DNA of 50,289 nt from a bacterium (GTDB lineage: Bacteria; JAHJDO01). Both the position numbers and the translations under genes were made by a program. This document shows, in pieces, positions 6,259 to 25,721 of the stretch; the first letter of the stretch is position 1; each line of letters opens with the position of its first letter. The notes under the pieces were generated by a model, which was not told the origin of the DNA, did not search any database, and was given only the letters and a program-made list of their open reading frames with translations. The stretch is from the NCBI GenBank assembly GCA_030652805.1, contig JAUSPT010000041.1, positions 1 through 50,289 of the forward strand, read 5' to 3'.

Positions 6259-6262
6259 AGAA

Positions 6263-8502: not shown

Positions 8503-8514
8503 TTTGAAATAAAA

Positions 8515-9678
8515 TTATATAGCTATCTTTTTTCCAGTTTTATTTGACTCCAGTGCTGCCGTCAAGACTTTATGACTCAGGGCGGTTTCTTCCGGCATTA
8601 CATTTTTAAAAGAATGGTCAGAGCCTCCTTCTTTAAATTCATACACAAACGCCCCTAACATCTGTTGAAAAGCATCTGAAAAACCAAATTCAAAAATCCC
8701 GCCAGTAATCGATGGTATTACTGACTGAGATCCTGTATCAATACGTGTCCATCCTTGTTCTTTGCCTTTGGTCTCTAAAAAATAAAAAGCCTTAGGATCG
8801 TGAGTTGTAAATTTTGCCGAACCTTCAGTGCCGTAGACCTCTATAAACCATGTATTTGTTGCGCCAGGAGCCATACGCTTGGTTTCAAGGATAAGTGTAA
8901 AATCTTTTCCGTGATCAGGATCAGCGCATTTGCAGGTAAGCACAGCATTATCCCATGTTTGACAGGTGGCAAATCCTCCTTTTCCATCAGGCCTCGTTTC
9001 AGCTATATTTAATAAATCAGCATACACTGTTTTTGGTATCCATCCCATACGAAAAGGAATATGCTGGGTATGCATTCCCAGATCGCCCATGCATCCATAT
9101 TCTCCATTAATTTCTATCATCCGCTTCCAATTGACTGGTTTATCAAGATCCATGTCACTGGAATGGTGGAAACCACTTTTGACCTCCATAAGCCTGCCAT
9201 ATCTTTTCTCCTGTATCCACTTAATTATCTTCTGTGCCCCTGGAAAATAGGGAAATTGGGAGTTGCACCGGACAATTATGTCGGGATTTTCTTGTATAAC
9301 TTTTAAAATATTGTCATTGGCTCTTTTATCAATACCAAATGGCTTTTCTCCGAGCAAATGCTTTCCTGCCTTAATAATATCAATGTACATCCTTTCGTGA
9401 AGATTATGAGGGACAGCACAATATACGGCATCAATTTTATCGGATTTAATTAATTCCCGGTAATCATCGGTATCTATTTTAATGGTCGGGAAATTGTCCA
9501 AAAACCATTTTCCCGTTTCCTTATTGTATTTATCACAAATACCTGTGATAACCGGTGCAGGTCCATCATAAAGCAGATGACACCAGCGGGCAATACTGCT
9601 GCCTAACTCCCGTCCCATTAAGCCAAGACCGATAACACCAAATCGTATTTTTTTTCTGTTTTTCTTATATTTTCCCAT
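8515..9678 (-). CDS. Gfo/Idh/MocA-family oxidoreductase
   Basis: NAD(P)-dependent dehydrogenase acting on sugars or inositols. An N-terminal Rossmann fold (FGVIGLGLMGRE) is followed by the family catalytic motif EKPFG with its lysine (GKHLLGEKPFG) and a C-terminal alpha/beta domain. The frame extends to 9741, but I start at ATG 9678 (MGKYKKNRKK): it has an AAGGA upstream and lies at the normal distance before the Rossmann glycines. This start overlaps the cupin gene end by 14 bases. The family includes myo-inositol dehydrogenases and amino-sugar oxidoreductases, which fits the ring-opening enzymes beside it. Confidence 0.9.
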   Translation of the reverse strand: MGKYKKNRKKIRFGVIGLGLMGRELGSSIARWCHLLYDGPAPVITGICDKYNKETGKWFLDNFPTIKIDTDDYRELIKSDKIDAVYCAVPHNLHERMYIDIIKAGKHLLGEKPFGIDKRANDNILKVIQENPDIIVRCNSQFPYFPGAQKIIKWIQEKRYGRLMEVKSGFHHSSDMDLDKPVNWKRMIEINGEYGCMGDLGMHTQHIPFRMGWIPKTVYADLLNIAETRPDGKGGFATCQTWDNAVLTCKCADPDHGKDFTLILETKRMAPGATNTWFIEVYGTEGSAKFTTHDPKAFYFLETKGKEQGWTRIDTGSQSVIPSITGGIFEFGFSDAFQQMLGAFVYEFKEGGSDHSFKNVMPEETALSHKVLTAALESNKTGKKIAI

Positions 9679-10144
9679 CTTTACCAATCCTTTTGTTTTT
9701 AAAAATACTGTCTCCTGGAATGCATGGTTTAGAAGCTTCAAGAATTAGACTGTTCCCCTCTCCTGTAAAAGAATGAACTATTCCCTGATTCATTGCAAAA
9801 GTATCTCCTTCTTCCATCAAAAATTCTTTCTCCGCAGTTTTCATTGAAACTTTACCTTTAACGATAAAGAAAGTTTCATGTTTAAAATTATGGTGATGAG
9901 CAGGGCAGGTTTGTCCATCAAAGAGAAATAAAAATTTTCCACAATATCCCTCTTTCTCTTCATTAGCTATCCAGAACTCAATAAGACCTGTTCTGCAAAA
10001 ATCACTTAATCCAAAATCTAAGACAAGAGGATCTACATCGGGCATTTTTATTTCCCACTTTTCAAGAACAGTATAACATCTCTTTAACGCATCCTTTTTC
10101 TCTTTGCCGGACAGTTCAAAAGTCTTTGTCCACTTATTTTCCAT
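9665..10144 (-). CDS. Single-domain cupin, possible sugar isomerase
   Basis: A 159-residue cupin. Motif 1 is CPAHHHNFKHETFFIVKG, giving metal ligands among H83-H85, E90 and, in motif 2, H124 (GIVHSF). It resembles metal-dependent cupins such as D-lyxose ketol-isomerases more than regulators, as no HTH is present. I start it at ATG 10144, 10 bases after an AAGGAG inside the creatininase gene end (11-base overlap), rather than at the longer frame to 10237. In this cluster a ketose-aldose isomerase feeding the FGGY kinase is a reasonable guess; a dioxygenase role is not excluded. Confidence 0.75.
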   Translation of the reverse strand: MENKWTKTFELSGKEKKDALKRCYTVLEKWEIKMPDVDPLVLDFGLSDFCRTGLIEFWIANEEKEGYCGKFLFLFDGQTCPAHHHNFKHETFFIVKGKVSMKTAEKEFLMEEGDTFAMNQGIVHSFTGEGNSLILEASKPCIPGDSIFKNKRIGKDGKI

Positions 10145-10895
10145 TTTTATAAAACTCCTTAATAAATTTCTGATAATTGTTAATAATTGCCTGCATAATC
10201 TTTTTTCCGGTTTCCTTTGTTGCTTTTGTTGGGTCACCGTAAATACCTGTTTTGCTTTTCTGTATTCCCCATGTAGACCAAAACACCTTGTCCGGATAGA
10301 ACTTGGAAGATACTGTTATCTTATCCTGCCCAGTCGCCTTTTTCATATCTACTAGATTTTCATTCAGATAAAGCATTAAAGATGTTTCGTATTCACCGCC
10401 ATGACAACTTCCTTTTGGACCGGCTTTGCTAATTTTCAAAAACTCTTCTTTTGCCATTAGCGAAGGATATGTAAGAGCCATATAGATATTATATGCATCG
10501 GCAACATTGCGCGTCACTACTCTTAATGCACCCGTATGATTTCCGTGAGCGCTAATAATTATAATCTTTTTAAAACCCATCTCAATGACGGAAGAACAGA
10601 TATCAAATACCATGTTGATAAATGTTTCTTGTTTTAATCTCATTGTTCCGGGCCATTTTGCTACACTTTTCATTGAATAACCGCTCCAAACAGCAGGCAT
10701 AATCAGTAAAGGAATCTTATTTTTTAGCGATTCTCCTATTCTTTTTGCCACTTCTTCAGCAATATAGGCATCGGTCTTTACCGGCAGATGTTTGCCGTGT
10801 TCTTCTATCTGACCAACTGGCAATATAATTAAGGCATTTTTTTTAATTAGTTCCTTTAATTCAGGCCATTTTTTGTCTGCAAAATAAATTGACAT
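10134..10895 (-). CDS. Creatininase-family hydrolase
   Basis: The metal-binding family signature PVGQIEEHGKHLPVKTDA (residues 26-43) and the later SAHGNHTGALRVV place it in the creatininase superfamily of binuclear zinc amidohydrolases (253 residues, normal length). Start chosen at ATG 10895 after AGAGGAGA. Members open cyclic substrates: creatinine, formamidopyrimidines, and, from memory, the keto-inositol hydrolase of the Thermotoga inositol pathway. Next to an inositol-dehydrogenase-like Gfo/Idh protein and an aminotransferase, ring opening of an oxidised cyclitol or lactam is the best working idea. The EE pair before HGKH is as in the family. Confidence 0.85.
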   Translation of the reverse strand: MSIYFADKKWPELKELIKKNALIILPVGQIEEHGKHLPVKTDAYIAEEVAKRIGESLKNKIPLLIMPAVWSGYSMKSVAKWPGTMRLKQETFINMVFDICSSVIEMGFKKIIIISAHGNHTGALRVVTRNVADAYNIYMALTYPSLMAKEEFLKISKAGPKGSCHGGEYETSLMLYLNENLVDMKKATGQDKITVSSKFYPDKVFWSTWGIQKSKTGIYGDPTKATKETGKKIMQAIINNYQKFIKEFYKNGK

Positions 10896-10980
10896 TTTGT
10901 CTCCTCTATTTAATTTAAACAATCCACGACTTTACCAGCACGAAGTTTTTCAATACACAACTCTGGCTCATTTTTGTCAT

Positions 10981-12009
10981 TTACTTCCTTTTAAACCTGT
11001 AACGAAGTACAGTATCTCTCATCGCATAGAAATTTTCCAGAGGCACAGCTTCGGTTATATTATGACTGGATGCGCAGATATATCCACCGCCAACAGCAAG
11101 TCTTTCAATGTGTTCAATTACATCCTTTTCTACGTCCTCCGGCGTTCCGAAGGCTAGAACGCCGGAAAGGTCAATGTTACCGTGCAAGGCAATCTTATTC
11201 CCATACATTTCCTTGATTTTATAGATATCTTGCTTGCCATCACAGGGCTCAATAGGGTTAAGTACATCTATTCCCATTTCTATAAAATCCGAGATTAGAG
11301 ACATCCCGTTCCCATCAAAATGGATGCTTACAGGAAGTTCTTTATTTTTTGCTAATTCAACTCTTTGGCGCAGGCCCGGGTATTCAAACTCCTCAATCAT
11401 TTCTCTTGAAAACATTGGACCTTCCTTGCTGCAAATTACAGACCCTACTTGTATCACATCTATGGGATAACTAAGTGCCAGTTCCAATTCGCTTATGCAG
11501 AAATCATTTACCATTTTCTGAAAATCATGAATGAATTCAGGATCAGTAATCATATACATATAGTAGTCTTGATAACCGATAGCAGTAGTAACAATAAATG
11601 CCGTCTGGTTGGGAGTATATATCAACCCAAGACCTGTCCCCTCGATACCTTCCAGTAATTCTTCAATAGATTTTTTAATAATGTCCAAACAGGGAAACTT
11701 TATCTGTTTCAAGTCTGCACGGGTCTTTATGGTACCGTCAACATATTGCTTCCGTCCCTGGGAATCAAAGACGTTCTTGCGGCCAAGTTCCCAGACGTTT
11801 GCCAGAAAAATCATGTCATTTCCACACTTCAAATTTAGCTCAATATAATCCTTAACCGGAAGTTCGTAAGAACGAAGGTTCATCGGAACAGGACGTCCCA
11901 AAATTTTGCTGACTACTGAAGATTCTATTTCGCTTTCCTGAAAACAAATCTCCTCTGATTCAATATGCTTCAGAGCGACAAGATAGCGATTTTTATCAGG
12001 TTTTCTCAA
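10981..12009 (-). CDS. Uroporphyrinogen decarboxylase-like protein (1)
   Basis: A UroD/MtaA-fold protein of 342 residues. The position of the MtaA zinc motif (HxC) is HFDGNG here (H230), so the zinc cysteine is missing, and the arginine-rich substrate motif of true heme-pathway UroD is not seen. Function is therefore unknown; related proteins recur in carbohydrate clusters of PVC bacteria. Translation probably starts at a TTG (12007-12009) after AGGCAGAGA. After the stop, the region to 10896 keeps an open frame (ending KLRAGKVVDCLN) that a one-base change in the AAAA run near the stop would join on; see findings. It lies in the DeoR-headed cluster. Confidence 0.8.
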   Translation of the reverse strand: MRKPDKNRYLVALKHIESEEICFQESEIESSVVSKILGRPVPMNLRSYELPVKDYIELNLKCGNDMIFLANVWELGRKNVFDSQGRKQYVDGTIKTRADLKQIKFPCLDIIKKSIEELLEGIEGTGLGLIYTPNQTAFIVTTAIGYQDYYMYMITDPEFIHDFQKMVNDFCISELELALSYPIDVIQVGSVICSKEGPMFSREMIEEFEYPGLRQRVELAKNKELPVSIHFDGNGMSLISDFIEMGIDVLNPIEPCDGKQDIYKIKEMYGNKIALHGNIDLSGVLAFGTPEDVEKDVIEHIERLAVGGGYICASSHNITEAVPLENFYAMRDTVLRYRFKRK

Positions 12010-12083
12010 TTTCTCTGCCTATTTTTTTGCTTCAAAAAGAAAATTCAATATTTCCAGAGACACTAATTTTAATAATTTACTGT

Positions 12084-13199
12084 TTATTTATTATCACTTT
12101 TAAATTGATTTTCTAAAATTTCTCTTACTAAACAAATTCTTAAAAAGTCCGTATCTGGGGGAACCTGGTCAGCTACTCCAAGAACAAACTTTGAACCTAA
12201 AGGGAAAGTTTGAATTACTTTCTTTAAATAATTCACAAAATAATCTTCAGAATAAACCCGTGAAAATAAAGCACCCGGCAGACACCCCCATATAATAATT
12301 TTATCATCTGCAATTTTTTTTATCTCTTCTAAGGTAAGGTCTCCTACTGGTGTTGGAGTTACTGCTTCTGCAAAATCAAAACCCGCCTTTATAATTGATG
12401 ATAAAGAGCCTTTTAATGTCCCATCATTATGTATGCCAACAAATTTGCCTGCTTTATGCAATTGTTCAATCCTTTTTTGCCAGTAAGGAAGATTATATTT
12501 TTCTATTAAATTTTCCCCGGTAACTTCACCAGAAAGATTATCAGGAAATTCAACTAATTTTGCAGGAGAATCGGCAATTATTTGGAAGATTTCATCATCA
12601 TCTTTTTCTAACTCAGTAATTGTTCGTTCCATTTCTTCTTTGCTATCGATAAGTAAAAAGATAGTTGTCTGCACTCCTGCCCAGCGGCTTAAAAGCGTTT
12701 GTAAAGGAGAAACGCAAATTGGTGCCAGGAGATCAGGCAATCCATATCCACCCCATAAAGCGTCAATGCGTCTAAAATCATCAAAACAGTGTGTTATCTT
12801 GCGATGAGAAAAAATATAACGCATAATTCTTAAATCTTCAGGCTTTTTAATATAATATTCTTTATAGGCGGTAGAAAAGGACTGGGGAAGATATTCTTTT
12901 ATACTGCTGAGTTCTCCTAAAGGTGTACATATGGTGGAAAGAGTTTTATTCCCTTCTTTTTTAACACTAGTCTTTATGCTTTCACCGAATTCCTCTTTCC
13001 ATACTGAAGGAGGATAAAGATAGATACCTGCACCTGTATCCTGATGAAGTTTTAAATAACCCTCTTCTCCTTCATATTCCTTAGGTAATTTTTGCATTGT
13101 TTTATGGCTTTCATACCAGTAAATCAAATCAGCATACCATGGAGTAATATCTGGCTTTTCTCCACTAAATACTGCTAACAACCTTTCTCTCTGATTCAT
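12084..13199 (-). CDS. Uroporphyrinogen decarboxylase-like protein (2)
   Basis: A second UroD-fold protein of 371 residues, preceded by AGGAGATTAGAAGG at its ATG. It opens with MNQRERLLAVFSGEKPD, the usual start of this family, and has HNDG where methyltransferase-type members have HxC, so it lacks that zinc site, like its neighbour. The two are clearly diverged, which suggests distinct or complementary roles (perhaps a heteromer) rather than a recent duplication. Decarboxylation or one-carbon transfer on a pathway intermediate is possible; no evidence decides it. 49 bases separate it from the aminotransferase upstream. Confidence 0.8.
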   Translation of the reverse strand: MNQRERLLAVFSGEKPDITPWYADLIYWYESHKTMQKLPKEYEGEEGYLKLHQDTGAGIYLYPPSVWKEEFGESIKTSVKKEGNKTLSTICTPLGELSSIKEYLPQSFSTAYKEYYIKKPEDLRIMRYIFSHRKITHCFDDFRRIDALWGGYGLPDLLAPICVSPLQTLLSRWAGVQTTIFLLIDSKEEMERTITELEKDDDEIFQIIADSPAKLVEFPDNLSGEVTGENLIEKYNLPYWQKRIEQLHKAGKFVGIHNDGTLKGSLSSIIKAGFDFAEAVTPTPVGDLTLEEIKKIADDKIIIWGCLPGALFSRVYSEDYFVNYLKKVIQTFPLGSKFVLGVADQVPPDTDFLRICLVREILENQFKSDNK

Positions 13200-13248
13200 C
13201 CTTCTAATCTCCTAAGATGTATTTCTCGTATTTTCCAGACTTCAGCTT

Positions 13249-14616
13249 TTAATATCCCAGTTCCTTCTCCACTTCAAAAATGGCTTCATCAATAATGTCC
13301 ATGCCCTTGAGAAGAACTTCATCTTCCATAATAATAGGAGGACTCATACGCAAGATATGTCCTGCTGGAATCCATGCAAGCCCTTTTCTAAAGGCTTTTT
13401 GATAAACCAGTTTTCCCGCTTCTTCAAAAGGTTCTTTGGTATTTTTATCCTTTACAAGCTCTATACCCATAAGACACCCCTTTGCCCGCACGTTACCCAC
13501 AATGGAACGCTCATCCTTCATCTTTTCCATACGTTTTAACGCTATTTTACCCAGATGCGTAGACTGTTCAAGCAGGTTTTCTTCTTCTATAACCTCAATA
13601 CATGCAAGTGCAGCTGCGCATGCCATCGGATTTCCTCCATAACTGCTGGAAGCTGAAATTGATTCAAATGATTCTTTGTAAGGTTCACGTACTGCTACAC
13701 ATGTTACTGGAAAACCATTGCCAAAACCTTTACCAAGCATTACTACATCCGGCACAACGTCCCAATGTTCAGTGCAAAGCCATTTCCCTGTACGCCCCAT
13801 ACTGGTGAGTACCTCATCGCACATTAGTAAGATTTTATGCTTATCACAAAATTTTCTCATTTTTGGAAAGAAATCATCAGGAGGTATTACTGAACCGCCC
13901 CAGCCTTGAATCGGTTCCAGAACAAAGGCGGCTACCTGATGCGCTGTACCTTTATCTAAATACTCTTCATAAAATTCAATATATCTATCAGTATCAATTG
14001 TCCCGTCATCCTTGGTCCAGTGAGGATGATATGGGTCAGGCCGCGGGACCATATGGAATCCCGGCGCTCTTGTAGGTCCGTACACTGCAGAACGAATGTG
14101 TCCCAATGATACGCCGCCATAAGTTTTTCCGTGATAATCATAGAAGCAGGAAATCATTTCATGCTGTTTAGTAGCAGCGCGGCATACACGCAATCCTGCT
14201 TCAACTGCTGTGGTTCCTGAATCGTACAATTGAAATCCGTTCAAATCGCCGGGCAAAATTTCTGCCAATTTTTCCATTAACTGTGTTTTTATCGGGGTGG
14301 TGAAATCATGCGCATTTTGAAGCGTACCTGCATATTTTTGGATGGCTTCTGTAATTTTTGGATGGCAATGTCCTAATGTGGTAACATAAATACCTGAGGA
14401 AAAATCTATGTATTTATTACCGTCTACATCTGTCAAAACACAACCTTTACCAGACTCAAAAACAACCGGAAAAAGTTTCACCTGACTGCTTAACCCTTTG
14501 AAATACTTTGTGCACCGCTCATGCCACTTTTTGGATTGAGGTCCAGGGGGAGTTACTTTTACATCAGGAACTTTACTTAAATCTATTTTTGCCCAGTCTT
14601 TATTGTACATTTCCAT
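13249..14616 (-). CDS. Class III PLP-dependent aminotransferase
   Basis: A 455-residue fold-type I enzyme of the GabT/ornithine aminotransferase/dialkylglycine decarboxylase group. Visible are GIYVTTLGHCHPKI near the N-terminus, FVLEPIQGWGG, LLMCDEVLTSMGRTG (PLP-binding aspartate), and VVMLGKGFGNGFP with the Schiff-base lysine. It moves an amino group between an omega-amine or amino sugar and a keto acid. GGAGG precedes the ATG. As the first gene after the DeoR regulator it probably acts early in the pathway, suggesting an amino-group-bearing substrate. Confidence 0.9.
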   Translation of the reverse strand: MEMYNKDWAKIDLSKVPDVKVTPPGPQSKKWHERCTKYFKGLSSQVKLFPVVFESGKGCVLTDVDGNKYIDFSSGIYVTTLGHCHPKITEAIQKYAGTLQNAHDFTTPIKTQLMEKLAEILPGDLNGFQLYDSGTTAVEAGLRVCRAATKQHEMISCFYDYHGKTYGGVSLGHIRSAVYGPTRAPGFHMVPRPDPYHPHWTKDDGTIDTDRYIEFYEEYLDKGTAHQVAAFVLEPIQGWGGSVIPPDDFFPKMRKFCDKHKILLMCDEVLTSMGRTGKWLCTEHWDVVPDVVMLGKGFGNGFPVTCVAVREPYKESFESISASSSYGGNPMACAAALACIEVIEEENLLEQSTHLGKIALKRMEKMKDERSIVGNVRAKGCLMGIELVKDKNTKEPFEEAGKLVYQKAFRKGLAWIPAGHILRMSPPIIMEDEVLLKGMDIIDEAIFEVEKELGY

Positions 14617-14643
14617 TTAATCCTCCAATTTATATTTCTAACG

Positions 14644-15411
14644 CTATACTGTTATTACTTCTACCCCGATTTTTCTTATCTTCTCTAGATATGTTTTATC
14701 AGCGTTCTTATCTGTTATTAATTTGTCTATATCCTTAATATCTACATATTTTGAAAACGAGTTTTTGCCAATCTTTGTATGATCTGTTACAACAATAACC
14801 TCAGTTGCAAGACGGCACATTAATTCTGTCATTTTCGCAGTATATATGTCTCCTGTGGTTACCCCTCCATCCACGCTCATTCCATCAGTTCCAAGAAGAG
14901 CTTTATCGGCACGAAAACTCTCTATGCCTTTTTCTGCAAGAGGTCCGCTTAAATCAAAACTCCCTGCTCTGCAATTACCACCCAATAGTATTGTACTTAT
15001 GTTACGAGAAGTTCTGAGCTCTAACATGACAAGTATAGAGTTTGTTACTACAGTTATATTGCTCCTGTTTTTAAGATTTCTTGCAATCTGCACTGTTGTA
15101 GTACCAGCATCAAGAAAAATCACGTCTCCACTTCTAACAAGTTCTGCTGCATACTTACCAATTGCCTCTTTTTCTTTAGGCATTTTTTTGACTTTATCTC
15201 TATACATAGTCTCCAGAAGTGTCTGTTCCAGCTTCACCGCTCCGCCATATGTCTTGGCAAGCAGGCCTTGTCCCTCCATTACTGAAAGGTCTCTTCTTAC
15301 CGTAACCTCTGATACTTCAAGTTTACCCGCAAGTTTTACAACCTCAATCTTGTTCTCTGCATTCAGGATATTCAGTATTATTTTTTTTCTTTCTGTAAAC
15401 TTAAGCCCCAT
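14644..15411 (-). CDS. DeoR-family transcriptional regulator
   Basis: A 255-residue repressor-type protein. The N-terminal winged helix contains VVKLAGKLEVSEVTVRRDLS and the family-typical GLLAKTYGGAV. The C-terminal DeoRC sugar-phosphate sensor shows IFLDAGTTTVQIARNL, TNSI and LLGTDGM. These proteins usually repress a sugar operon and release DNA when a phosphorylated intermediate accumulates, consistent with the FGGY kinase downstream. AAGGA lies before the ATG. A promoter and a tandem direct repeat lie just upstream, suggesting autoregulation. It heads the co-directional run down to 5254 or further. Confidence 0.92.
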   Translation of the reverse strand: MGLKFTERKKIILNILNAENKIEVVKLAGKLEVSEVTVRRDLSVMEGQGLLAKTYGGAVKLEQTLLETMYRDKVKKMPKEKEAIGKYAAELVRSGDVIFLDAGTTTVQIARNLKNRSNITVVTNSILVMLELRTSRNISTILLGGNCRAGSFDLSGPLAEKGIESFRADKALLGTDGMSVDGGVTTGDIYTAKMTELMCRLATEVIVVTDHTKIGKNSFSKYVDIKDIDKLITDKNADKTYLEKIRKIGVEVITV

Positions 15412-15497: not shown

Positions 15498-17333
15498 TTA
15501 CTTAGCTTTCTTCAGGAACACCATTAGAATCATGATCGCTGCAGGGGTTACGCCAGAAATGCGATTCGCCTGACCCAATGATACAGGCTGGAATTTTTCC
15601 AACTTTTCCTTAATCTCTTTTGATAATCCATGAACATCTGCGTAGTCTAAATCTATGGGAATCCTTATCCTCTCAAGATCCTTAAATTTCCTTATATCTC
15701 TGACCTGTCTCTGAATAAAACCGGCATATTTGACCTCTATCTCCATTTGAGTCAGCACATCATCAGGCAAGTCAATCTTGAAAGTATTAATGCTAACTTC
15801 CGGACGTCTGAGAAATTCCTCCAGAGAAATAGTTTTTTTAATAGAAGGAACAGTGGAAGGGCTTATTTTCTCTCTTCTTAAATATTTTAATCCCTGCTCA
15901 ATTTTTCTCTGCTTCTCAGTAGTTTTATCAAAATCATCCTTTGAAACAAGGCCTGCTTCATATCCAATTTTTCTTAACCGTAAATCTGCATTATCTTCAC
16001 GAATAACGAGGCGGTGCTCAACGCGCGAAGTAAACATCCTGTATGGCTCATTCGTACCCTTTGTTACAAGATCATCAAGCAGCACACCAATATAACTGGT
16101 AGAACGATCCAGTATAAGAGGAGCTTTTCCCTTCATTTTTAACACAGCATTTACTCCTGCAACCAATCCCTGTGCTGCAGCTTCCTCATATCCTGTAGTA
16201 CCATTAATCTGTCCTGCCAGATATAAATTACTAATTGGTTTTGTCTCCAGAGTAGGATAAACCTGTCTGGAATCGATAACATCATGCTCTATTCCATAAC
16301 CCATATGTGTGGGCTTTGCCTTTTCCAATCCTTTGATTGAGTGTAAAAAATCCATCTGAATATCTTCCGGCAGACTTGTAGCAAGCCCGTTAGGATAGAA
16401 TTCAAACGTATCCAATCCCTCCGGCTCAAGAAATATCTGGTGACGACTTTTATCAGCAAACTTTACTATTTTGTCTTCAATTGAAGGGCAGTATCGCACT
16501 CCTGTGCCATGAATTACACCGGTGAACAGAGGCGACTTACTCAGCCCGGAACGAATAATCTCATGCGTCCTTTGATTAGTATAGGTAAGATAGCAAGGGA
16601 CTTGCTTCCTGGTTATACGTCTTGTAGAAAAAGAAAACGGTATTGGCTTTTTATCTCCCTCCTGAATCTGGAGCCCTGAAAAATCAATTGTTCTTCCATC
16701 CAATCTTGGACAGGTTCCTGTTTTAAAACGAAGAAGTTTAAATCCTAAATCCTTTAAGGAATCCGAAAGTTTTGTTGCTGCTTTTTCTCCCATTCTGCCG
16801 CCTGGAAAATGTTTAAGCCCTACATGAAGCAGCCCATTCAAGAATGTGCCGGGAGTAATAACCACTGCTTTAGAGAGAATGTTCCCTGAACTGGTTTTCA
16901 CTCCGATAACAGACATATTTTTTACAACTAATCCTATAACCTGTCCCTCTGTTACATCCAGATTTTTCTGCTTATTTACAACGTTACTCATGTAAAACTT
17001 GTATTTTTTTCTATCTATTTGTGCGCGCGAGGAACGTACTGCAGGGCCTTTTGAAGAATTGAGCTGGCGAAACTGTATGCCTGCATAATCAGCAGCCTTT
17101 GCCATTTCACCGCCAAGAGCATCTATTTCCTTAACAAGCTGCCCCTTGCCTATTCCGCCAATTGCAGGATTGCAGGACATAAACCCAATATTATCTTTAT
17201 TCATTGTGATGAGTAATGTCTTCGCACCCATTCTCGCACTTGCCAGAGCCGCCTCGCACCCTGCATGTCCCGCACCAACAACAATCACATCATATTTCAT
17301 CTTTCTACGCCTATTTACTTTATTCGTTTTCAT
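15498..17333 (-). CDS. mnmG: tRNA uridine-5-carboxymethylaminomethyl modification enzyme MnmG
   Basis: With MnmE it modifies the wobble uridine (U34) of certain tRNAs. The FAD-binding dinucleotide fold DVIVVGAGHAGCEAA, the GidA motif NPAIGGIGKGQLVKEIDALGG, and the second signature GQINGTTGYEEAAAQGL are all present. At 611 residues it is near the family norm (about 620). The ATG at 17333 overlaps the exosortase stop (TAATG); an internal ATG at 17300 (MKYDVIVVG) matches the usual N-terminus and could be the true start. No mnmE is visible in the window. Its coupling to the exosortase pair is unusual. Confidence 0.95.
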   Translation of the reverse strand: MKTNKVNRRRKMKYDVIVVGAGHAGCEAALASARMGAKTLLITMNKDNIGFMSCNPAIGGIGKGQLVKEIDALGGEMAKAADYAGIQFRQLNSSKGPAVRSSRAQIDRKKYKFYMSNVVNKQKNLDVTEGQVIGLVVKNMSVIGVKTSSGNILSKAVVITPGTFLNGLLHVGLKHFPGGRMGEKAATKLSDSLKDLGFKLLRFKTGTCPRLDGRTIDFSGLQIQEGDKKPIPFSFSTRRITRKQVPCYLTYTNQRTHEIIRSGLSKSPLFTGVIHGTGVRYCPSIEDKIVKFADKSRHQIFLEPEGLDTFEFYPNGLATSLPEDIQMDFLHSIKGLEKAKPTHMGYGIEHDVIDSRQVYPTLETKPISNLYLAGQINGTTGYEEAAAQGLVAGVNAVLKMKGKAPLILDRSTSYIGVLLDDLVTKGTNEPYRMFTSRVEHRLVIREDNADLRLRKIGYEAGLVSKDDFDKTTEKQRKIEQGLKYLRREKISPSTVPSIKKTISLEEFLRRPEVSINTFKIDLPDDVLTQMEIEVKYAGFIQRQVRDIRKFKDLERIRIPIDLDYADVHGLSKEIKEKLEKFQPVSLGQANRISGVTPAAIMILMVFLKKAK

Positions 17334-18184
17334 TAACTGCTATTATAACATTTTTTTAAACAGTTTTTCTCACACATAAAAAGCACAGCAAGAAAAACCA
17401 GAAAGAACGTTCCCAGAATCTTGTCAAAACTTTCAGTTTGGACACAGTTCATGCCTGTTACCCCTGCAATAGTAAACAATAAAATCCGCAAGATATTTGA
17501 TATCAAAATGAATAGAGGTATGCTGGATATCCATATCAATGTTTGTGCGAGATTAAATTTGCATATCCACGGCAAAATTGATAAAAACATTAGCAATATA
17601 ATCAGCGTATCCAGCCCTGAACAACGTTCTACAAGAATAAGCGTGAAATCAGATACTGTTACCGAATAATTTTCCAACGACAATTTAACCGGCATACCAA
17701 GCCGACCAAAAAAAGCACCAATGATAATTGCATTAAGACGGTTAATCCAGTGAATCAAAAAAGAGAGTCTCCATTCAAAAGGATAAAGAAAAATAAGAAA
17801 AAAACATGGGAAAAGGACTTTTTTTGCCTTCTTTATACCATAAAAAAGACAACATAGACTGAACGCAAAAACAACGAGTGCAGCCCCTTCAAAAAAATAC
17901 ATTCCGGAAAAAAATCCATATAAGAAAATCAGAAAACCTGATAGGAGAAAAACAAAGAAATAAAATGTACCGCTGGCATTCTTCTCCTGTTTAAAAGGTG
18001 AGCTTGTCTGAGCATGCCTGAAAAGAAGATAGGATATCAGAGGTGTAAGTAAAATATAAAAATACATAGGCTGCCGGTGGTAAATGCTCAGTATCCATAA
18101 AAAATATCTATGCAATAGAACCGGAATAATGAGAGAAACCAGTAATATCAGGAATATTTTCCCCCTGTCAGTCTGAATCCTCAT
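17333..18184 (-). CDS. Exosortase-like membrane transpeptidase lacking the canonical histidine
   Basis: A 283-residue polytopic protein (about eight hydrophobic helices) of the exosortase/archaeosortase family, which cleaves C-terminal sorting tails at the membrane. The nucleophile is C188 in ILVERCSGLDTL, and the conserved arginine is R233 in SNILRILLF. The third residue, normally H in a HDxxG-like motif, is F253 (ESFDKILG), so the catalytic histidine appears lost or moved. The gene overlaps its putative substrate gene by 17 bases and mnmG by one. It is probably dedicated to that one neighbour. It could be an alternative-mechanism exosortase or an impaired one. Confidence 0.78.
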   Translation of the reverse strand: MRIQTDRGKIFLILLVSLIIPVLLHRYFLWILSIYHRQPMYFYILLTPLISYLLFRHAQTSSPFKQEKNASGTFYFFVFLLSGFLIFLYGFFSGMYFFEGAALVVFAFSLCCLFYGIKKAKKVLFPCFFLIFLYPFEWRLSFLIHWINRLNAIIIGAFFGRLGMPVKLSLENYSVTVSDFTLILVERCSGLDTLIILLMFLSILPWICKFNLAQTLIWISSIPLFILISNILRILLFTIAGVTGMNCVQTESFDKILGTFFLVFLAVLFMCEKNCLKKCYNSS

Positions 18185-18404
18185 TCCTTTTTCTCCTCCA
18201 TAATCCCAGAAGAAGAACTCCTGACGCTACAATAACAACAACCACTGAACCAGGCAGAGGAGCTTTAGCTGCCGCAGGAGGAGCAACCGGAGCAACTGGA
18301 GGAGGAGGAACAGGAGGCCTAGGCCGCCATCCCCAAGCATATCCAAGTTGATGCATACTAAAAATTAAAAACACAATTAGAATGACAACGATTTTGACTT
18401 TCAT
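18168..18404 (-). CDS. Mini proline-rich protein with exosortase-type sorting tail (PLPG-CTERM-like)
   Basis: A 78-residue protein started at ATG 18404, which has GGAGAAA 5 bases upstream (the longer start at 18419 has none). It has a signal peptide (residues 1-23, ending GYA), a very short proline-rich stretch 24-51 (WGWRPRPP then PPPP/APP runs), a P49-L-P-G52 motif, a hydrophobic helix 54-69, and a basic tail LWRRKRN. This layout is that of PEP-CTERM-type substrates, but the motif is non-canonical and the mature domain would be only about 28 residues. It overlaps the exosortase gene, making it the obvious partner. Possible roles are a surface anchor, carrier or processed peptide; none is proven. 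Confidence 0.7.
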   Translation of the reverse strand: MKVKIVVILIVFLIFSMHQLGYAWGWRPRPPVPPPPVAPVAPPAAAKAPLPGSVVVVIVASGVLLLGLWRRKRNEDSD

Positions 18405-18451
18405 TGTTTTTCTCCACATGTTAATGGTCTAGTTTATATGCTCAATCTACA

Positions 18452-18617: not shown

Positions 18618-20930
18618 TTACGCCACTTTAATCTGGTACAAATATTTTTGGAACTCAATAAATGTATTCTTTATTGATTCAACACCACCAAGCGCTTCTG
18701 CCGCATCAGTTATTGATTGATACTTTAATTCAAGCAAGCTCGGTAATTTATCTTGGTCAAGTTCGCCGACACCAGTTTCAATATATTGAGACAAAACAAA
18801 ATCCAGAAAATCTTTTTGTTTATCATCAAGCCCTAAGAAGATATTTGATTTTGCGTTTATTACTCGTTCTTCTCTGGTAATGGGTTTAACATTGAACGAC
18901 ACATATTCAAGCACATCAAACAAATCGCTTTTTTCTGCATTAATCAACTTTCGCAGATTGCTTAATTCATTTTTGCCGTAACCTGCTTTTTCTAATTTTT
19001 TCAGAAAAGACTTTCGAGTTGACGGAATAGACCAAATTTTGCGTAGTTCTTCCTCATCTTTAAAAAATCTAGGCAATTTACCGTAAAGATTTTCCAGAAA
19101 TTCTTCGGCTGATATAGGTTTGCCATCAGCGTTCCAAAAAGATGTGGCAATCATATGCTGGATTTCCCGCTCTTTGCCATCGCGTAATTTAATTTTAATC
19201 TTCTTCTTTGCTTCGTATGGAGGTCCAGGTTCACTGATAATATCTTTCGGCTCCTTCGGCTCTTTGGGTTCTTTTGGTTCCGGCTCTATCGGTTCACCAT
19301 CCCATTCAGGATCAGCAAAATGATGATACGCATCAACAAAGTCATAAATCGTAAAATATTCTTTCCCGTCAAATAACCGTGTTCCACGACCTATAATCTG
19401 CTTAAACTCGATCATTGAATTAACCGGACGCATCAAGATAATATTTCGGATATTGCGGGCATCCACACCAGTAGAAAGTTTTTGCGAGGTAGTAAGAATT
19501 GTCGGGACGCTTTTTTCGTTGTCCTGAAACTCGCGCAAATACTGTTCCCCAAGTGCGCCGTCATTAGCCGTTACCCGCTGGCAATAGTGGGGGTCGGAAC
19601 TGTCTTTGAGTTGATTAACCAAATCCCGAACTGCCAACGCGTGATCCTGAGTAGCACAGAAAACAATAGTCTTTTCGCTTTGATTGATTTCATCTAAGAA
19701 AATTCTGACCCGCTTGGCTTCACGTTCTTTGATCTCAATAATTCGGTTAAAATCAGTTTCTATATAAATTTTCCCTTCTTCTATTTCACCTTCAACAATC
19801 TGATCATCTGACGTATAGATATAATCATCAATCGTCGTCTTAATCCTCTTTATCTTAAACGGTGTTAGGAATCCATCGTTAACACCTTCTTTTAGTGAAT
19901 AGATATAAACAGGATCACCGAAATATTTATATGTATCCACGTTATCTCTGCGTTTGGGAGTAGCTGTCAACCCTAATTGCACAGCCGGTGAAAAATGCTC
20001 CATAATACCCCGCCAATTGCCTTCGTCATTAGCACCACCACGATGACATTCATCAATAATGATAAAATCAAAATAATCAGCCGGATATTCACCAAAATAA
20101 GGCATCGAATTACCATCCGCATCTTTGCCACTCATAAATGTTTGGAAGATGGTAAAGAAGATACTTCCATTTGTTGGAACTCTGCCCTTCTTTCGAATTT
20201 CACTTGGAGCAATTCTGACCAGTGCGTCTTCAGAAAAAGCATTAAAAGCGTTGAAAGCTTGGTCTGCTAAAATGTTTCTATCGGCAAGGAATAATATACG
20301 GGGTCTCCTTGAACCGTCACGCTTTAAATTCCAACGGGTTTGATAAAGTTTCCACGCTATTTGAAAAGCAATAAAGGTTTTGCCGGTACCTGTCGCCAAA
20401 GTAAGTAATATGCGCGACTTATCTTCGGCAATAGCGGACATGGCGTTATTGACCGCAATTTCCTGATAGTATCGCACCTTTTTTGTGCCGCCGATATCTT
20501 CAAACGGAACTTGATTAAATTTATCCCGCCATTGGTTTTGAGTTTCGAAAGTCTTATTCCACAACTCGTCTGGAGATGGGAAGGCAGCAATTAATCCTTC
20601 CTTGCCAGTCTTCATGCAGATTTGGTAAATATCTTTGCCGTTACTGGCATAAGTCGTATCAAGATGCATCATTCCAGCATAATTCTTAGCTTGGGCAACG
20701 CCTTCGCCAACGACCAGTTCATCGCTTTTAGCTTCAATGACAGCAAGTTTGCGTCCCTGATATACCAGTACATAATCAGCTCTCAAAGGTTTAGCGCGAC
20801 CTCCGCCAGTCTGGATTTTCCCGGCAGTGATTTTGTATTCCCGCAAAACTTTTGTGCCTTCCACGACACCCCAGCCGCTTTCTTTTAGTGCGGGGTCAAT
20901 GAGTTCTGCTCTTGTTTCAGCTTCGTTCAT
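18618..20930 (-). CDS. hsdR: Type I restriction enzyme, HsdR (endonuclease/translocase) subunit
   Basis: Cleaves unmodified DNA after ATP-driven translocation. The N-terminal nuclease domain has D52 and the pair in IEAKSDE (E66, K68), a PD-(D/E)xK site. The motor domains show Walker A LATGTGKT, the DEAD-box IIIDECHRGG, GLTATPKR and the motif-VI-like IIGRGTRL. A low-complexity stretch of EPKEP units sits near residue 540. At 770 residues it is on the short side for HsdR. The start overlaps the RhuM gene by 14 bases. It is the last gene of the operon. Confidence 0.92.
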   Translation of the reverse strand: MNEAETRAELIDPALKESGWGVVEGTKVLREYKITAGKIQTGGGRAKPLRADYVLVYQGRKLAVIEAKSDELVVGEGVAQAKNYAGMMHLDTTYASNGKDIYQICMKTGKEGLIAAFPSPDELWNKTFETQNQWRDKFNQVPFEDIGGTKKVRYYQEIAVNNAMSAIAEDKSRILLTLATGTGKTFIAFQIAWKLYQTRWNLKRDGSRRPRILFLADRNILADQAFNAFNAFSEDALVRIAPSEIRKKGRVPTNGSIFFTIFQTFMSGKDADGNSMPYFGEYPADYFDFIIIDECHRGGANDEGNWRGIMEHFSPAVQLGLTATPKRRDNVDTYKYFGDPVYIYSLKEGVNDGFLTPFKIKRIKTTIDDYIYTSDDQIVEGEIEEGKIYIETDFNRIIEIKEREAKRVRIFLDEINQSEKTIVFCATQDHALAVRDLVNQLKDSSDPHYCQRVTANDGALGEQYLREFQDNEKSVPTILTTSQKLSTGVDARNIRNIILMRPVNSMIEFKQIIGRGTRLFDGKEYFTIYDFVDAYHHFADPEWDGEPIEPEPKEPKEPKEPKDIISEPGPPYEAKKKIKIKLRDGKEREIQHMIATSFWNADGKPISAEEFLENLYGKLPRFFKDEEELRKIWSIPSTRKSFLKKLEKAGYGKNELSNLRKLINAEKSDLFDVLEYVSFNVKPITREERVINAKSNIFLGLDDKQKDFLDFVLSQYIETGVGELDQDKLPSLLELKYQSITDAAEALGGVESIKNTFIEFQKYLYQIKVA

Positions 20931-21945
20931 TTTTATTATCCCGTTTTTGCAGCAATTTCTTTTCTATTTCCTCAAGTTGTTTTAGGTCTTCTTCATCCGC
21001 TGCCCGTGCTTCTGCCTTTTTCCGTTTCTTATTAAATTCTTCGTAACACTTTTCGGCAATCTTTTTAGCTACTTCCGCCTTAACCTTGCCGGCATGTGTC
21101 AATAATTCCTGCTCGTTGAATTCCAGAAAACTATCAAGTTTGTCTGCCCATTGTTTCATTGTAACGGTTTTTCTTTGCCTTGCCTGTCTTTCGGCATAAT
21201 CCAGATACATGGTTACAATCTCATTCAGGTCTTTGATTTCATCCTCGTTCAGGTAGTTTTTGGCGATAGCCACATCTTGTTTTCTTACAATAGAACCTCG
21301 CCATGAGGTAAGCCCCATATTGGATTTGTCCGCATTGCTGCGATTTTCAATGAGTTCAGCAGCAGTTTTTCCGGTGGTTGCCCAGAGCATTTTATTCTGT
21401 ACCTTTTTAAAGAAAATTTGCGCCTGCTCCGATGTTTTATCGTAATCAATTGCGGTTGCGTAAATATCACGAATTTTCTGGTAAAACCGCTTTTCGGATG
21501 CACGGATATCCCGGATTCGCTCCAACCACTCGTCAAAATAGTTCCATTTGTCGATTTGCTTTAAGCGGTCATCATCCATGGCAAAGCCTTTGATGATGTA
21601 TTCTTTAAGAATATTGGTTGCCCATATTCTAAATTGTGTTGCTCGCTTGGAATTTACCCGGTAGCCGACTGCTATAATAGCGTCCAGATTATAGAAATCT
21701 CTGTTTCTGGCTACATGGCGGTTGCCTTCCTGCCCAACTGTTTCCATTTTGGAAATAGTTGCCTCTTTCTGCAATTCTCCTTCTTCGTAGACGTTGCTTA
21801 GGTGTTTTGATATTGCTGGAACATTAACATCAAAAAGCTCTGCCATCTTTGCCTGTGTAAGCCAGATAGTTTCGTTTTGAAAGATAGTGTCTATTTTTAC
21901 TTTGCCGTCCGTGGTGGTGTAGAGGACGATTTCGGATTGGGGCAT
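20917..21945 (-). CDS. RhuM-family protein
   Basis: A 342-residue protein matching the virulence-RhuM family, often found in or beside type I restriction operons and islands. The N-terminal part contains IWLTQAKMAELFDVNVPAISKHL, an HTH-like segment, and the conserved RDFYNLDAIIAVGYRVNS and ATNILKEYIIKGFAM. The C-terminus is a charged, probably coiled-coil tail (KKRKKAEARAADEED). AGGAGG lies before the ATG. It sits between hsdS and hsdR and overlaps hsdR by 14 bases. The biochemical role is not established; a DNA-binding accessory or defence role is inferred from its setting. Confidence 0.87.
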   Translation of the reverse strand: MPQSEIVLYTTTDGKVKIDTIFQNETIWLTQAKMAELFDVNVPAISKHLSNVYEEGELQKEATISKMETVGQEGNRHVARNRDFYNLDAIIAVGYRVNSKRATQFRIWATNILKEYIIKGFAMDDDRLKQIDKWNYFDEWLERIRDIRASEKRFYQKIRDIYATAIDYDKTSEQAQIFFKKVQNKMLWATTGKTAAELIENRSNADKSNMGLTSWRGSIVRKQDVAIAKNYLNEDEIKDLNEIVTMYLDYAERQARQRKTVTMKQWADKLDSFLEFNEQELLTHAGKVKAEVAKKIAEKCYEEFNKKRKKAEARAADEEDLKQLEEIEKKLLQKRDNKNERS

Positions 21946-21970
21946 TAGATTACCTCCTGTTCATCTGTGG

Positions 21971-23086
21971 TCACAATTTTCCCTCAAAAGCTTTCTGTAA
22001 TATTGATTTCTTAAATTCTTCTAAGTTTGCGAGTTTGTGATTATAGATTGTTTCAAGCTTTTTGGTTTCGGCTGAAAGCGCATCAAGTTTTGCGACGATA
22101 CTTTTTTGTTCGGTTATTGATTTCGGAAATTTAAAAACTATTTGTTTTAATGCTCCGCCATTAAATTGAGGTTGCGCTGAGCCAGCCGATAATTGACTGA
22201 CTTGATCCCAGTAAAGCCTAGACTTTGAAAAATACCAATACAACTTACTCGAAATTTCTTTTTTAAATTTCATTCTGATAAGATACGACGCAAATACTGC
22301 CTTTTCCTCACCTTTAAATAATAATACATTGCCAGCTGAAGCACCCGTTCGTGCCATCAATAAATCACCGTCTTTCAAAATATACTTGTTCGATTCTTTA
22401 AAAGAATTTATATACATCTTTTTTTCTTGTGTCAATAAACCATTCTTATCTGTATCAGTAATTCTTACAAATCTATAATCACCTTTGCATCTCGCTTTTT
22501 CCGTATATCCATATTCAACATCACAAACATCGCTCAAATTATCCTCTTCCCATTTTTCATTACTAAAAACACTCTGCAAATACGATTCGAAAATTTCTTT
22601 GGCGTTTTGAAGATTTTTTTTCGCATTTTTCTTTGATTTTTCAACCTTATCAAAAACTTCATCTAAAACTTTAACGATTCGCTTTTGTTCTTGAGATGAT
22701 GGTAATGGAATTTCAAAGTTTTCGAGCATTCCCATTTTTATATACGGCATCGTATTTCCAAGTTTTTGCTTGGAAACTGTATCTTTAAGCATTCCCTCTA
22801 AAAAATGAAGTAAAAATGGAACTGAAATATCTTTAAAATTAAAGAGAACATATGTACGTTGATATGCTTCAAACTTTCCTTTGTAGTAACTTACGTGTCC
22901 TACATCTCCATTGCCTGCAACAAGAATTGCTTCCATATCAAAAGAATATTCATCGCTATAAGTATGTTCTCTGGCACAAGTAAAAAATGGGTATTTACCA
23001 TTAAGATTACCTTGATTGACATCTTTCTTGCCAGTTTTTATATCACACACCTCTCCAAGTTTTTTTATTTTCCAGTTATTTTTCAT
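21971..23086 (-). CDS. hsdS: Type I restriction enzyme, HsdS specificity subunit
   Basis: Provides DNA target recognition to the HsdM/HsdR complex. The 371 residues show two tandem target-recognition domains with helical spacers. The first starts WKIKKLGEVCDIKTGKK and ends at PLPSSQEQKRIVKVLDEVF; the second starts around DNLSDVCDVEYGYTEKA and ends at ITEQKSIVAKLDALSAETKK and a closing helix. The bipartite pattern predicts a two-part recognition sequence. The start overlaps the upstream Shedu-like gene by 11 bases. Confidence 0.92.
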   Translation of the reverse strand: MKNNWKIKKLGEVCDIKTGKKDVNQGNLNGKYPFFTCAREHTYSDEYSFDMEAILVAGNGDVGHVSYYKGKFEAYQRTYVLFNFKDISVPFLLHFLEGMLKDTVSKQKLGNTMPYIKMGMLENFEIPLPSSQEQKRIVKVLDEVFDKVEKSKKNAKKNLQNAKEIFESYLQSVFSNEKWEEDNLSDVCDVEYGYTEKARCKGDYRFVRITDTDKNGLLTQEKKMYINSFKESNKYILKDGDLLMARTGASAGNVLLFKGEEKAVFASYLIRMKFKKEISSKLYWYFSKSRLYWDQVSQLSAGSAQPQFNGGALKQIVFKFPKSITEQKSIVAKLDALSAETKKLETIYNHKLANLEEFKKSILQKAFEGKL

Positions 23087-24245
23087 AAAATGAAATTATT
23101 CTATTCCCATTTTCTAAAAGTTGATCATAAGAAATAATATCAATATCATGCAAACTAGAATTCAAGAAATGAAGAGCCTCGTTTTCTTCTTTGTTAAAAT
23201 TCTTTGTCCTACCAATAATAAGTCTTATCCTTGGTCTAAGTATTCTAACAAAATGTTCTTGCTCTAAAGTTTTTTTATAATCTTCAATCCTTTGTAAATA
23301 TATCAAACACTGACCAATGGCTTCGGAAAAATCACTTGTTGGAAAGTAACAGCGATGAGAGTTGTCGTATCTAAATAACTTATATTTCGGATTTGGCCTT
23401 TTTATTTCAATTAAACTTAGAAAACCGTCTGGGGTTTCAAGAATAATGTCCGCTTGAGAATTATCTTCCCCTATTTTTCTAAAAGGATGTTTTTTGTGGT
23501 ACTCAACTCCAAAAATCCAAAGATTGTTTTCTATCCAATTATGAAATATTTTTTCTGGTTGATCGGCTTTGTATTTATTTAATTCACCGTCCAATTTTAC
23601 TAATTTGAGAAAATTAATATCGTTTTCAACTTCCATAAGTTTTCCGAGTACCTTGAGTGACTTTTTATGCTCCTTTTGCTTTATGGCTGCATCAAGGCTT
23701 TCTATTTCATATAAGTCAATATTATCAATAAACTTTTGAAGCAATTTGTTCTTTTCGGCTTTTTCTATGTTATTAAAAAGCTGAAAAAGTTGTTCTGGAG
23801 TTAAAGGTTGTGATCCTTCCAGCAATTGTGTTAACGCTTTCTCTCTTTCTATTACTTCATCTATTTTCTTGTCTGTGAATCTTAGATTTTGTCTTGACGA
23901 TAGATCAAGCAAATCCAATGATTCAAGAAATTTTATAAAACGAGTTAATGCACCCCCATGGAAACTAAAAGATTGATTGTGTGGTGCTCCAGTCTTTTTT
24001 GAAAACCTCTGGATTCGAACAGAAAAATCAGTTGTATCTTCATTGTAAATTGCAGTTATTTCTTGAGTTGAGCTTTCACGAATAACTTCAAAAACCTTCT
24101 TCGTTTTTTGTTCATAATAAAAATCTTTAAAATCATTCAAATCAAAAACTTTTGAGACATATCGAATATTACCCTCTTTACCAATTGGATGGCTAACATA
24201 AGTAATGTCAGGGTTTTTATTTTTAGCATACTCTCCGTCATTCAT
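23076..24245 (-). CDS. Shedu-type (DUF4263) nuclease embedded in the type I RM operon
   Basis: The C-terminal half matches the DUF4263 domain of the Shedu defence protein SduA: EKIFHNWIENNLWIFG, the PD-(D/E)xK core D266 (QADIILE) with E280-I-K282 (LIEIKRP), and EAIGQCLIYLQRIED. The N-terminal half (residues 1-120) has the beta-rich segment seen in Shedu proteins, with IQRFSKKTG and FSFHGGALTRFIKFL. A charged helical linker joins them. Length 389 is typical. It lies 3 bases after hsdM and overlaps hsdS by 11, so it is translated as part of the RM operon. It is probably an anti-phage nuclease. Confidence 0.85.
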   Translation of the reverse strand: MNDGEYAKNKNPDITYVSHPIGKEGNIRYVSKVFDLNDFKDFYYEQKTKKVFEVIRESSTQEITAIYNEDTTDFSVRIQRFSKKTGAPHNQSFSFHGGALTRFIKFLESLDLLDLSSRQNLRFTDKKIDEVIEREKALTQLLEGSQPLTPEQLFQLFNNIEKAEKNKLLQKFIDNIDLYEIESLDAAIKQKEHKKSLKVLGKLMEVENDINFLKLVKLDGELNKYKADQPEKIFHNWIENNLWIFGVEYHKKHPFRKIGEDNSQADIILETPDGFLSLIEIKRPNPKYKLFRYDNSHRCYFPTSDFSEAIGQCLIYLQRIEDYKKTLEQEHFVRILRPRIRLIIGRTKNFNKEENEALHFLNSSLHDIDIISYDQLLENGNRIISFYEK

Positions 24246-24248
24246 ATT

Positions 24249-25721
24249 TTACACCCACTTTGTTATAGATTTTAAAATTTCCGCACCCTCTTTATCCAAA
24301 ACCTTTATCTCATCCAGAATCTTTTTCGGTTCCCTCAGCACTGTTTCATCCTTTTTATGTGGATTCTTCACCGAGAGATCATAAGTTTTCTGGTCAATAT
24401 CTTTTATATCAATCGTCCATGAGTTTTCAGAATCAGCTTTTACTTTTTGCAGTTTTACAAATTCTGCCAGGTCATCTTCATTCAATGGATTCGTTTTACC
24501 AAGATTTCTATTCAGATTAAGTTGATAGAACCAAATCTTTTTTGTCGGCGTTCCTTTTTCAAAGAAAAGAACAACCGTTTTTACACCGGCACCCTGAAAA
24601 ACACCGCCGGGTAAGTCTATAACCGCATACAAATTGCAGCTTTCCAGTAAAGTCCGCCTCAAGGATGTGGAAGCATTATCCGTATTTGAAAGAAATGTGT
24701 TTTTGATAACAACTCCCGCTTTCCCACCTGCTTTTAATATCTTGATGAAATGTTGGAGAAACAGAAAAGCTGTCTCACCTGTTTTGATTGGAAAGTTTTG
24801 TTGAACTTCTTTCCGTTCTTTTCCGCCAAACGGTGGATTTGCCAGAATAATATCGTATCTATCTTTTTCCTGTATGTCGGAGATATTCTCGGAAAGTGTG
24901 TTTACATGTAAAATATTCGGCGCTTCAATACCGTGAAGTATCATGTTCATAGTGCCGATGATGTATGCCAGAGATTTTTTCTCTTTCCCGTAAAAAGTAC
25001 TCTTTTGAAGAATCTGCATGTCTTTGATGGTTAAAGTAGAGACGGAAAATCTTCCGTCTCTACTGTTTTTTAAGTATTCAAATGCTTCACATAAAAACCC
25101 CGCAGAACCAACAGCGCCGTCATAAATGGTATTGCCTATCTTTGGGGCAACAACTTTTACAATAGTTTTAATCAATGGGCGCGGTGTGTAATATTCCCCG
25201 CCGTTTCTTCCTGCATTACCCATATTCTTAATTTTTCCCTCATAAAGATGGGACATCTCATGCTTTTCTTTATGGGTTCTGAATTTTAGTTCATCAACAA
25301 GATTTATCACTTCACGCAAATTATATCCGCTTTGCACCTTGTTTTTTAATTCGCTGAATATCTCGCCGATCTTATATTCGATGGTTGCTGCATTTTCTGG
25401 TGCCTTGAATTTTTTCAGATATGGGAAAAGTTTATGGTCAACAAAATCTTTTAAGTCATCGCCACCGAGGGCTTTGTGGTGGTCGAGTTTGCCGTCTTTA
25501 TCTTTAGGAACAGCCCATATCTTCCATTTAAACTCTTTATCAATTATAGGCGTATATGATTTGCCGGATAAATCCGCTTTAGTCTTTTTGTCTTTTTCTA
25601 AATCATCAAGATATTTAAGGAATAAAACCCATGAGGTTTGTTCTACATAATCCAATTCACTACTGCACCCTGCATCTTTGTGTAGTATGTCATCAATATT
25701 TTTAAAAGTTTGCTCAAACAC
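24249..25721 (-). CDS. hsdM: Type I restriction enzyme, HsdM DNA methyltransferase subunit
   Basis: N6-adenine methyltransferase. The helical N-terminal HsdM domain (FKNIDDILHKDAGCS...) is followed by GGEYYTPRPLIKTIV, the SAM-binding DGAVGSAGFLCEA and the catalytic NPPF (ILANPPFGG). 490 residues is normal. The start is GTG (25719-25721) with AAAGGG upstream. Residues about 220-229 (SRDGRFSVST) are encoded by a 30-base palindrome (25035-25064) that looks inserted in frame in a loop before TFYGKEKKSLAYIIG. A TATAAT sits 45 bases upstream with a weak -35 (TTGGGG). Confidence 0.93.
   Translation of the reverse strand: MFEQTFKNIDDILHKDAGCSSELDYVEQTSWVLFLKYLDDLEKDKKTKADLSGKSYTPIIDKEFKWKIWAVPKDKDGKLDHHKALGGDDLKDFVDHKLFPYLKKFKAPENAATIEYKIGEIFSELKNKVQSGYNLREVINLVDELKFRTHKEKHEMSHLYEGKIKNMGNAGRNGGEYYTPRPLIKTIVKVVAPKIGNTIYDGAVGSAGFLCEAFEYLKNSRDGRFSVSTLTIKDMQILQKSTFYGKEKKSLAYIIGTMNMILHGIEAPNILHVNTLSENISDIQEKDRYDIILANPPFGGKERKEVQQNFPIKTGETAFLFLQHFIKILKAGGKAGVVIKNTFLSNTDNASTSLRRTLLESCNLYAVIDLPGGVFQGAGVKTVVLFFEKGTPTKKIWFYQLNLNRNLGKTNPLNEDDLAEFVKLQKVKADSENSWTIDIKDIDQKTYDLSVKNPHKKDETVLREPKKILDEIKVLDKEGAEILKSITKWV
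25035..25064. repeat. 30-base palindrome inside the hsdM coding sequence
   Basis: Two perfect 13-base arms (AGTAGAGACGGAA and its complement TTCCGTCTCTACT) flank the 4-base loop AATC. The length is a multiple of three and the hsdM frame stays open through it. The GTAGAGACG...CGTCTCTAC form resembles intergenic palindromes common in other bacterial genomes (from memory), so a mobile palindromic element is likely. Confidence 0.75.

Follow-up and report, generated by a model that had tools for sequence, protein, structure and literature searches.

Among bacterial protein-sorting enzymes, exosortases are expected to act on proteins that carry a C-terminal sorting signal (CTERM), and a minimal form of such a system was predicted in a bacterial contig (JAUSPT010000041.1, assembly GCA_030652805.1), the analyzed stretch of which, referred to as the window, spans 50,289 nucleotides. 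There a divergent exosortase gene overlaps a gene for a 78-residue proline-rich protein, which raises the question whether the two form a dedicated enzyme-target pair, and what the altered third active-site residue of the enzyme would mean for its chemistry.

An overlapping gene pair with a tiny putative target

An open reading frame check of the window placed both genes on the minus strand, with the small gene preceding the exosortase gene and sharing 17 nucleotides with it, so the predicted overlap was borne out (Table 1). The length of 78 residues is correct when counted from the start MKVKI, and a further in-frame ATG upstream at 18419 would give a protein of 83 residues. The start codon of the target gene follows the Shine-Dalgarno-like sequence GTGGAGAAAAACA, and that of the exosortase gene follows GGAGGAGAAAAAGGA, which lies within the last codons of the target gene. 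The latter placement fits translational coupling, and the exosortase and its tiny target are probably co-translated.

Table 1. Features of the putative exosortase-target pair, in window coordinates
Feature	Position	Strand	Basis
Putative exosortase target, 78 aa (P0002)	18168..18404	-	P0002 from second Met; GGAG ribosome-binding site; intact G002 ortholog 90% identical
Predicted signal peptide, residues 1-23 (...GYA/WGW)	18336..18404	-	Read from sequence; 5/7 amino-acid differences to G002 here
Pro-rich mature segment, residues 24-52, Pro 12/29, PLPG at 49-52	18249..18335	-	Sequence; amino-acid identical in G002
C-terminal sorting signal: hydrophobic segment 53-69 + RRKR 70-73	18186..18248	-	Sequence, tripartite scan
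Divergent exosortase, 283 aa, probably 8 TM (P0001)	17333..18184	-	PF09721, TIGR04178; helix pattern of AlphaFold2 model
Cys188 of CxG, predicted nucleophile	17621..17623	-	Profile alignment and motif reading
Arg233 of NxxR	17486..17488	-	Profile alignment and motif reading
Asp254, column of HxxxG histidine	17423..17425	-	Profile and MAFFT alignments; kept in G002

The small protein displays every element that had been predicted for it, namely a signal-like N-terminus, about 28 proline-rich residues, PLPG, a hydrophobic stretch and the basic RRKR, and a hydropathy scan found the full combination expected of a CTERM protein (motif, transmembrane helix, basic tail and N-terminal signal peptide). 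None of the curated CTERM families matched it above cut-off. The PEP-CTERM models PF07589 and TIGR02595 matched neither this protein nor any other in its genome, and TIGR04200 gave no match listed up to E=10, in a search whose HMMER filters can drop weak matches. The PLPG motif, described as non-canonical in the original prediction, is indeed present but not very unusual, as PELPG or PEMPG end the dedicated targets adjoining other exosortases.

The pair is directly adjoined by a Type I restriction-modification cassette (18618-25721, minus strand; HsdM, HsdS and HsdR by Pfam), in which a RhuM-family gene and a Shedu SduA C-terminal-like gene lie between the subunits. On its other side, about 10 kb (5254-15411, minus strand), including a URO-D family gene, separate mnmG from radical-SAM-like and glutamine-synthetase-like genes, which directly follow mnmG in the related genome G002. 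No exopolysaccharide locus was seen in the window.

A divergent exosortase with aspartate in the histidine column

The 283-residue protein matched the exosortase family model PF09721 (E=1.1e-24; 87.7 bits vs a cut-off of 25.7) and the superfamily signature TIGR04178 (37.1 bits vs 23). With both curated cut-offs passed, it is a member of the exosortase/archaeosortase superfamily by more than chance, and its sequence suggests that it is probably a membrane enzyme trimming and sorting exported proteins. It fell below TIGR02602 (55.1 bits vs 105.55) and below the cut-off of every named Xrt model (XrtA, 63.3 vs 208), so the proposed comparison with the Xrt models places it in the superfamily but in no named subfamily. 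In a maximum-likelihood tree it sits on a very long branch of 2.75 changes per column. A single-protein scan of the genome collection found no close relatives outside its genus, and an alignment-based scan returned 20 distant exosortases, all bearing the histidine.

A sequence search of the PDB turned up no solved structure of an exosortase relative, and a fold search there returned nothing below E=0.1. The AlphaFold2 model (pLDDT 72, pTM 0.60) has a helix pattern compatible with eight transmembrane helices and a hairpin before Cys188; its helix boundaries, combined with the positive-inside rule, would put Cys188, Arg233 and Asp254 at helix ends on the outer face.

The 2006 definition of EpsH-type exosortases names three motifs, CxG, NxxR and HxxxG, each of which contains invariant residues (PMC1569441). 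The corresponding motifs here read C188-S-G190, N230-I-L-R233 and D254-K-I-L-G258; hence the Cys and Arg expected of the superfamily are present, as had been noted, while the EpsH-type His is replaced. The residue in its place had been given as F253, which is one position off. Asp254 aligned to the His column of HxxxG in a profile built from 30 exosortases and likewise in MAFFT alignments of 12 and 21 rows, and solely a 5-row alignment shifts this column by one. Because the profile and the larger alignments agree, position 254 is where Asp replaces His, and F253 is simply the preceding residue, ruled out as the catalytic position. We infer that Asp254 fills the structural place of the usual His and possibly its catalytic role. 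Two further departures are Tyr43 in place of the YSHG-motif His, which is found in 44 of 61 exosortases, and R187 directly before the Cys, where Ala or Pro is usual.

The rarity of this substitution was gauged in 104 distinct exosortase-like proteins, gathered from 385 diverse genomes, 291 genomes belonging to a single phylum and 20 named contigs, using a pattern count followed by inspection of the rows that the pattern missed. The His was kept in 98 of them. The six others comprise the window exosortase and its G002 ortholog (both Asp), L083 (Asp), L086 (Glu), L135 (Lys) and L132 (Asp, without the Cys). As the window enzyme with its ortholog, L083 and L086 are placed apart in the maximum-likelihood tree, the last two among His-bearing relatives, the sample holds no fewer than three separate origins of an acidic residue in place of His where Cys and Arg are intact. 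In addition, the archaeosortase ArtA of Haloferax volcanii was reported to depend on Cys173, Arg214 and Arg253 (PMC9263693). ArtA thus also combines Cys, Arg and a non-His third critical residue, a likeness of reported residues and not of aligned columns; it differs in having Arg instead of Asp and in targeting PGF-CTERM proteins. Given the reported need of ArtA for Arg253 and the recurrence of Asp and Glu in exosortases, an enzyme lacking His at the third position is not necessarily inactive, nor does it have to follow a new chemistry.

L083 and L086 belong to different clades and are both encoded in one genome (G210); each is followed by a downstream, apparently EpsI-like gene, and sugar-transferase-like genes were read from the sequence of each locus. 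L128 and L132 are exosortase-like proteins without the catalytic Cys, possible pseudo-enzymes, and L128 still has an adjacent small target with a tripartite tail.

Pairing in the genus and precedents elsewhere

The genome of origin, 96% complete, encodes one exosortase only. A profile of the target tail matched one protein, the next candidates scoring E=0.4 or worse; for tails resembling this one, which are all that such a profile finds, the genome therefore holds one enzyme and one adjacent target, as expected of a dedicated system, and the suggested genome-wide search for other PLPG-CTERM proteins yielded nothing similar. Both genes are intact in G002, in the same order and 90-91% identical. 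Exosortase and tail occur together in two of the five genus members (G000 and G002), and neither was detected in G001 (62% complete), G003 (91%) or G004 (90%); the mnmG neighbourhoods retrieved from G003 and G004 lack the pair. The proposed functional pairing is therefore supported by a single exosortase and a single tail that overlap and are present or undetected together across the five genomes. Elsewhere in G002, a 468-aa frame contains a sub-threshold TIGR04178 match of 19.1 bits (L146, G002:C135:21648-21887).

Comparison with the G002 ortholog gave a dN/dS of 0.28 for the exosortase (53 changes, 27.5 non-synonymous and 25.5 synonymous) with Cys188, Arg233 and Asp254 unchanged, and the enzyme is under purifying selection. 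Of the seven amino-acid differences in the target, five fall within the signal peptide and two, V54A and V59I, are the sole changes in residues 53-73; the stretch 19-53 is fully conserved. The gene has nine nucleotide differences in all, chiefly in the part encoding the signal peptide, too few for a verdict on selection acting on the target by itself.

The regions around the 104 exosortases were also scanned for short same-strand open reading frames with a signal peptide and a tripartite tail. Twenty were flagged. Among them are the window pair and its counterpart in G002, an apparent false hit (L106) and two that are the tails of longer frames (L058 and L063). A small target lies upstream of or overlaps the exosortase in at least nine clear cases: L062 (57 aa), L056 and L061 (85 and 109 aa, PELPG), L065, L117 and L118 (APEM, APEMPG and APEL), and L120, L121 and L122 (APEP). 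It lies downstream in L123-L126. In the phylum of G134, L123-L126, L133, L134 and L138 feature small, mostly Cys-containing proteins beside exosortases, with the tails VPELPSWFGPFFLAT, VPELPGG, SEMPA or NVPES.

Two known systems provide precedents. NCBIfam TIGR04200 is a 57-position family named targ_of_XrtJ, and a rhombosortase that has just one target is usually encoded next to it (PMC3237569). Together with the recurring small adjacent targets, they indicate that the pairing seen here is of a recurrent kind, so the proposal of a minimal system was right in kind and not new. The XrtJ system (TIGR04199/TIGR04200) likewise pairs one exosortase with a tiny CTERM protein that is named as its target, but the motif is PExPT instead of PLPG, and neither the target nor the exosortase of the window matched the respective model. 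EpsH-type exosortases (PF09721, TIGR02602, XrtA) with PEP-CTERM targets share the family profile, CxG, NxxR and a CTERM-type target, and differ in HxxxG versus DxxxG here, where a single target is found in a genome without PEP-CTERM. The rhombosortase with a single GlyGly-CTERM target also forms an adjacent gene pair in one-target genomes; in contrast, it is a rhomboid serine protease, unrelated to exosortases.

Proposed working of the pair and competing explanations

It is likely that the two genes encode a dedicated exosortase-target pair in which Cys188 cuts near PLPG with Asp254 in place of the His. The target would leave the cytoplasm via Sec, guided by its N-terminal signal peptide, and stay anchored in the membrane through its C-terminal helix, leaving RRKR on the inner side. 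The co-translated exosortase, with Cys188, Arg233 and Asp254 placed where its last three helices reach the extracytoplasmic side, would then recognize PLPG. As known of the family, cleavage by Cys188 near this motif would give an acyl-enzyme, which could hand the peptide of about 28 proline-rich residues to a lipid, a glycan, water or another acceptor. This reading draws on the curated family matches, the sole exosortase with a sole tail match, their joint presence, the dN/dS of 0.28, the predicted outer-face position of Cys188, Arg233 and Asp254, the recurring layout and the rhombosortase precedent (PMC3237569). Counted against it are the missing HxxxG histidine, the scores below the TIGR02602 and Xrt cut-offs, the long branch and the occurrence of the pair in two genomes only.

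Asp254 may take over the orienting or activating part played by His, or a histidine of the outer face may contribute. In the latter sub-variant of the dedicated pair, which is unlikely, H36 or H145 enters the active site and the chemistry is ordinary. All four histidines of the enzyme (25, 36, 57 and 145) are kept in G002, and the helix pattern of the model puts H36 (in the turn between TM1 and TM2) and H145 (before the Cys hairpin) in outer-face stretches; against this, the H36 column holds no conserved His in other exosortases.

An exosortase of reduced catalytic power, or even a pseudo-enzyme whose role is limited to binding, chaperoning or anchoring the small protein, is improbable. The lost His, the long branch, R187 and Tyr43 would agree with such decay, and Cys-less family members do exist, L132 and, with its own adjacent target, L128. 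However, Cys188 and the glycine of CxG are intact, as are Asn230 and Arg233; selection is purifying with the Asp kept in G002, and other exosortases whose neighbours look ordinary (L083 and L086) have also exchanged His for Asp or Glu.

The original prediction suggested a variant sorting chemistry or a processed surface peptide. A Cys-Arg-Asp enzyme with altered chemistry would be a single-peptide specialist that, for example, hydrolytically releases a short proline-rich extracellular peptide instead of transferring it to an acceptor; this is quite improbable, and the argument for it is unsupported in view of the misaligned residue, the recurrence of His-to-Asp or His-to-Glu (L083, L086) and the reported Arg253 of ArtA. 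That the small frame encodes an unrelated membrane peptide preceding the exosortase by chance is highly improbable, for the absence of a curated CTERM match and of PEP-CTERM in the genome is opposed by the overlap, the joint presence, the full tripartite tail, the complete conservation of residues 19-53 and the recurrence of such layouts.

Judged by sequence, the kind of system, a putative dedicated exosortase with a small target, is known, and new is the divergent pair with the His-to-Asp substitution. With its single tiny target, a naturally occurring His-to-Asp exosortase could serve as a compact test case for the role of the third catalytic residue, and the recurring small adjacent targets suggest a route to unknown sorting motifs.
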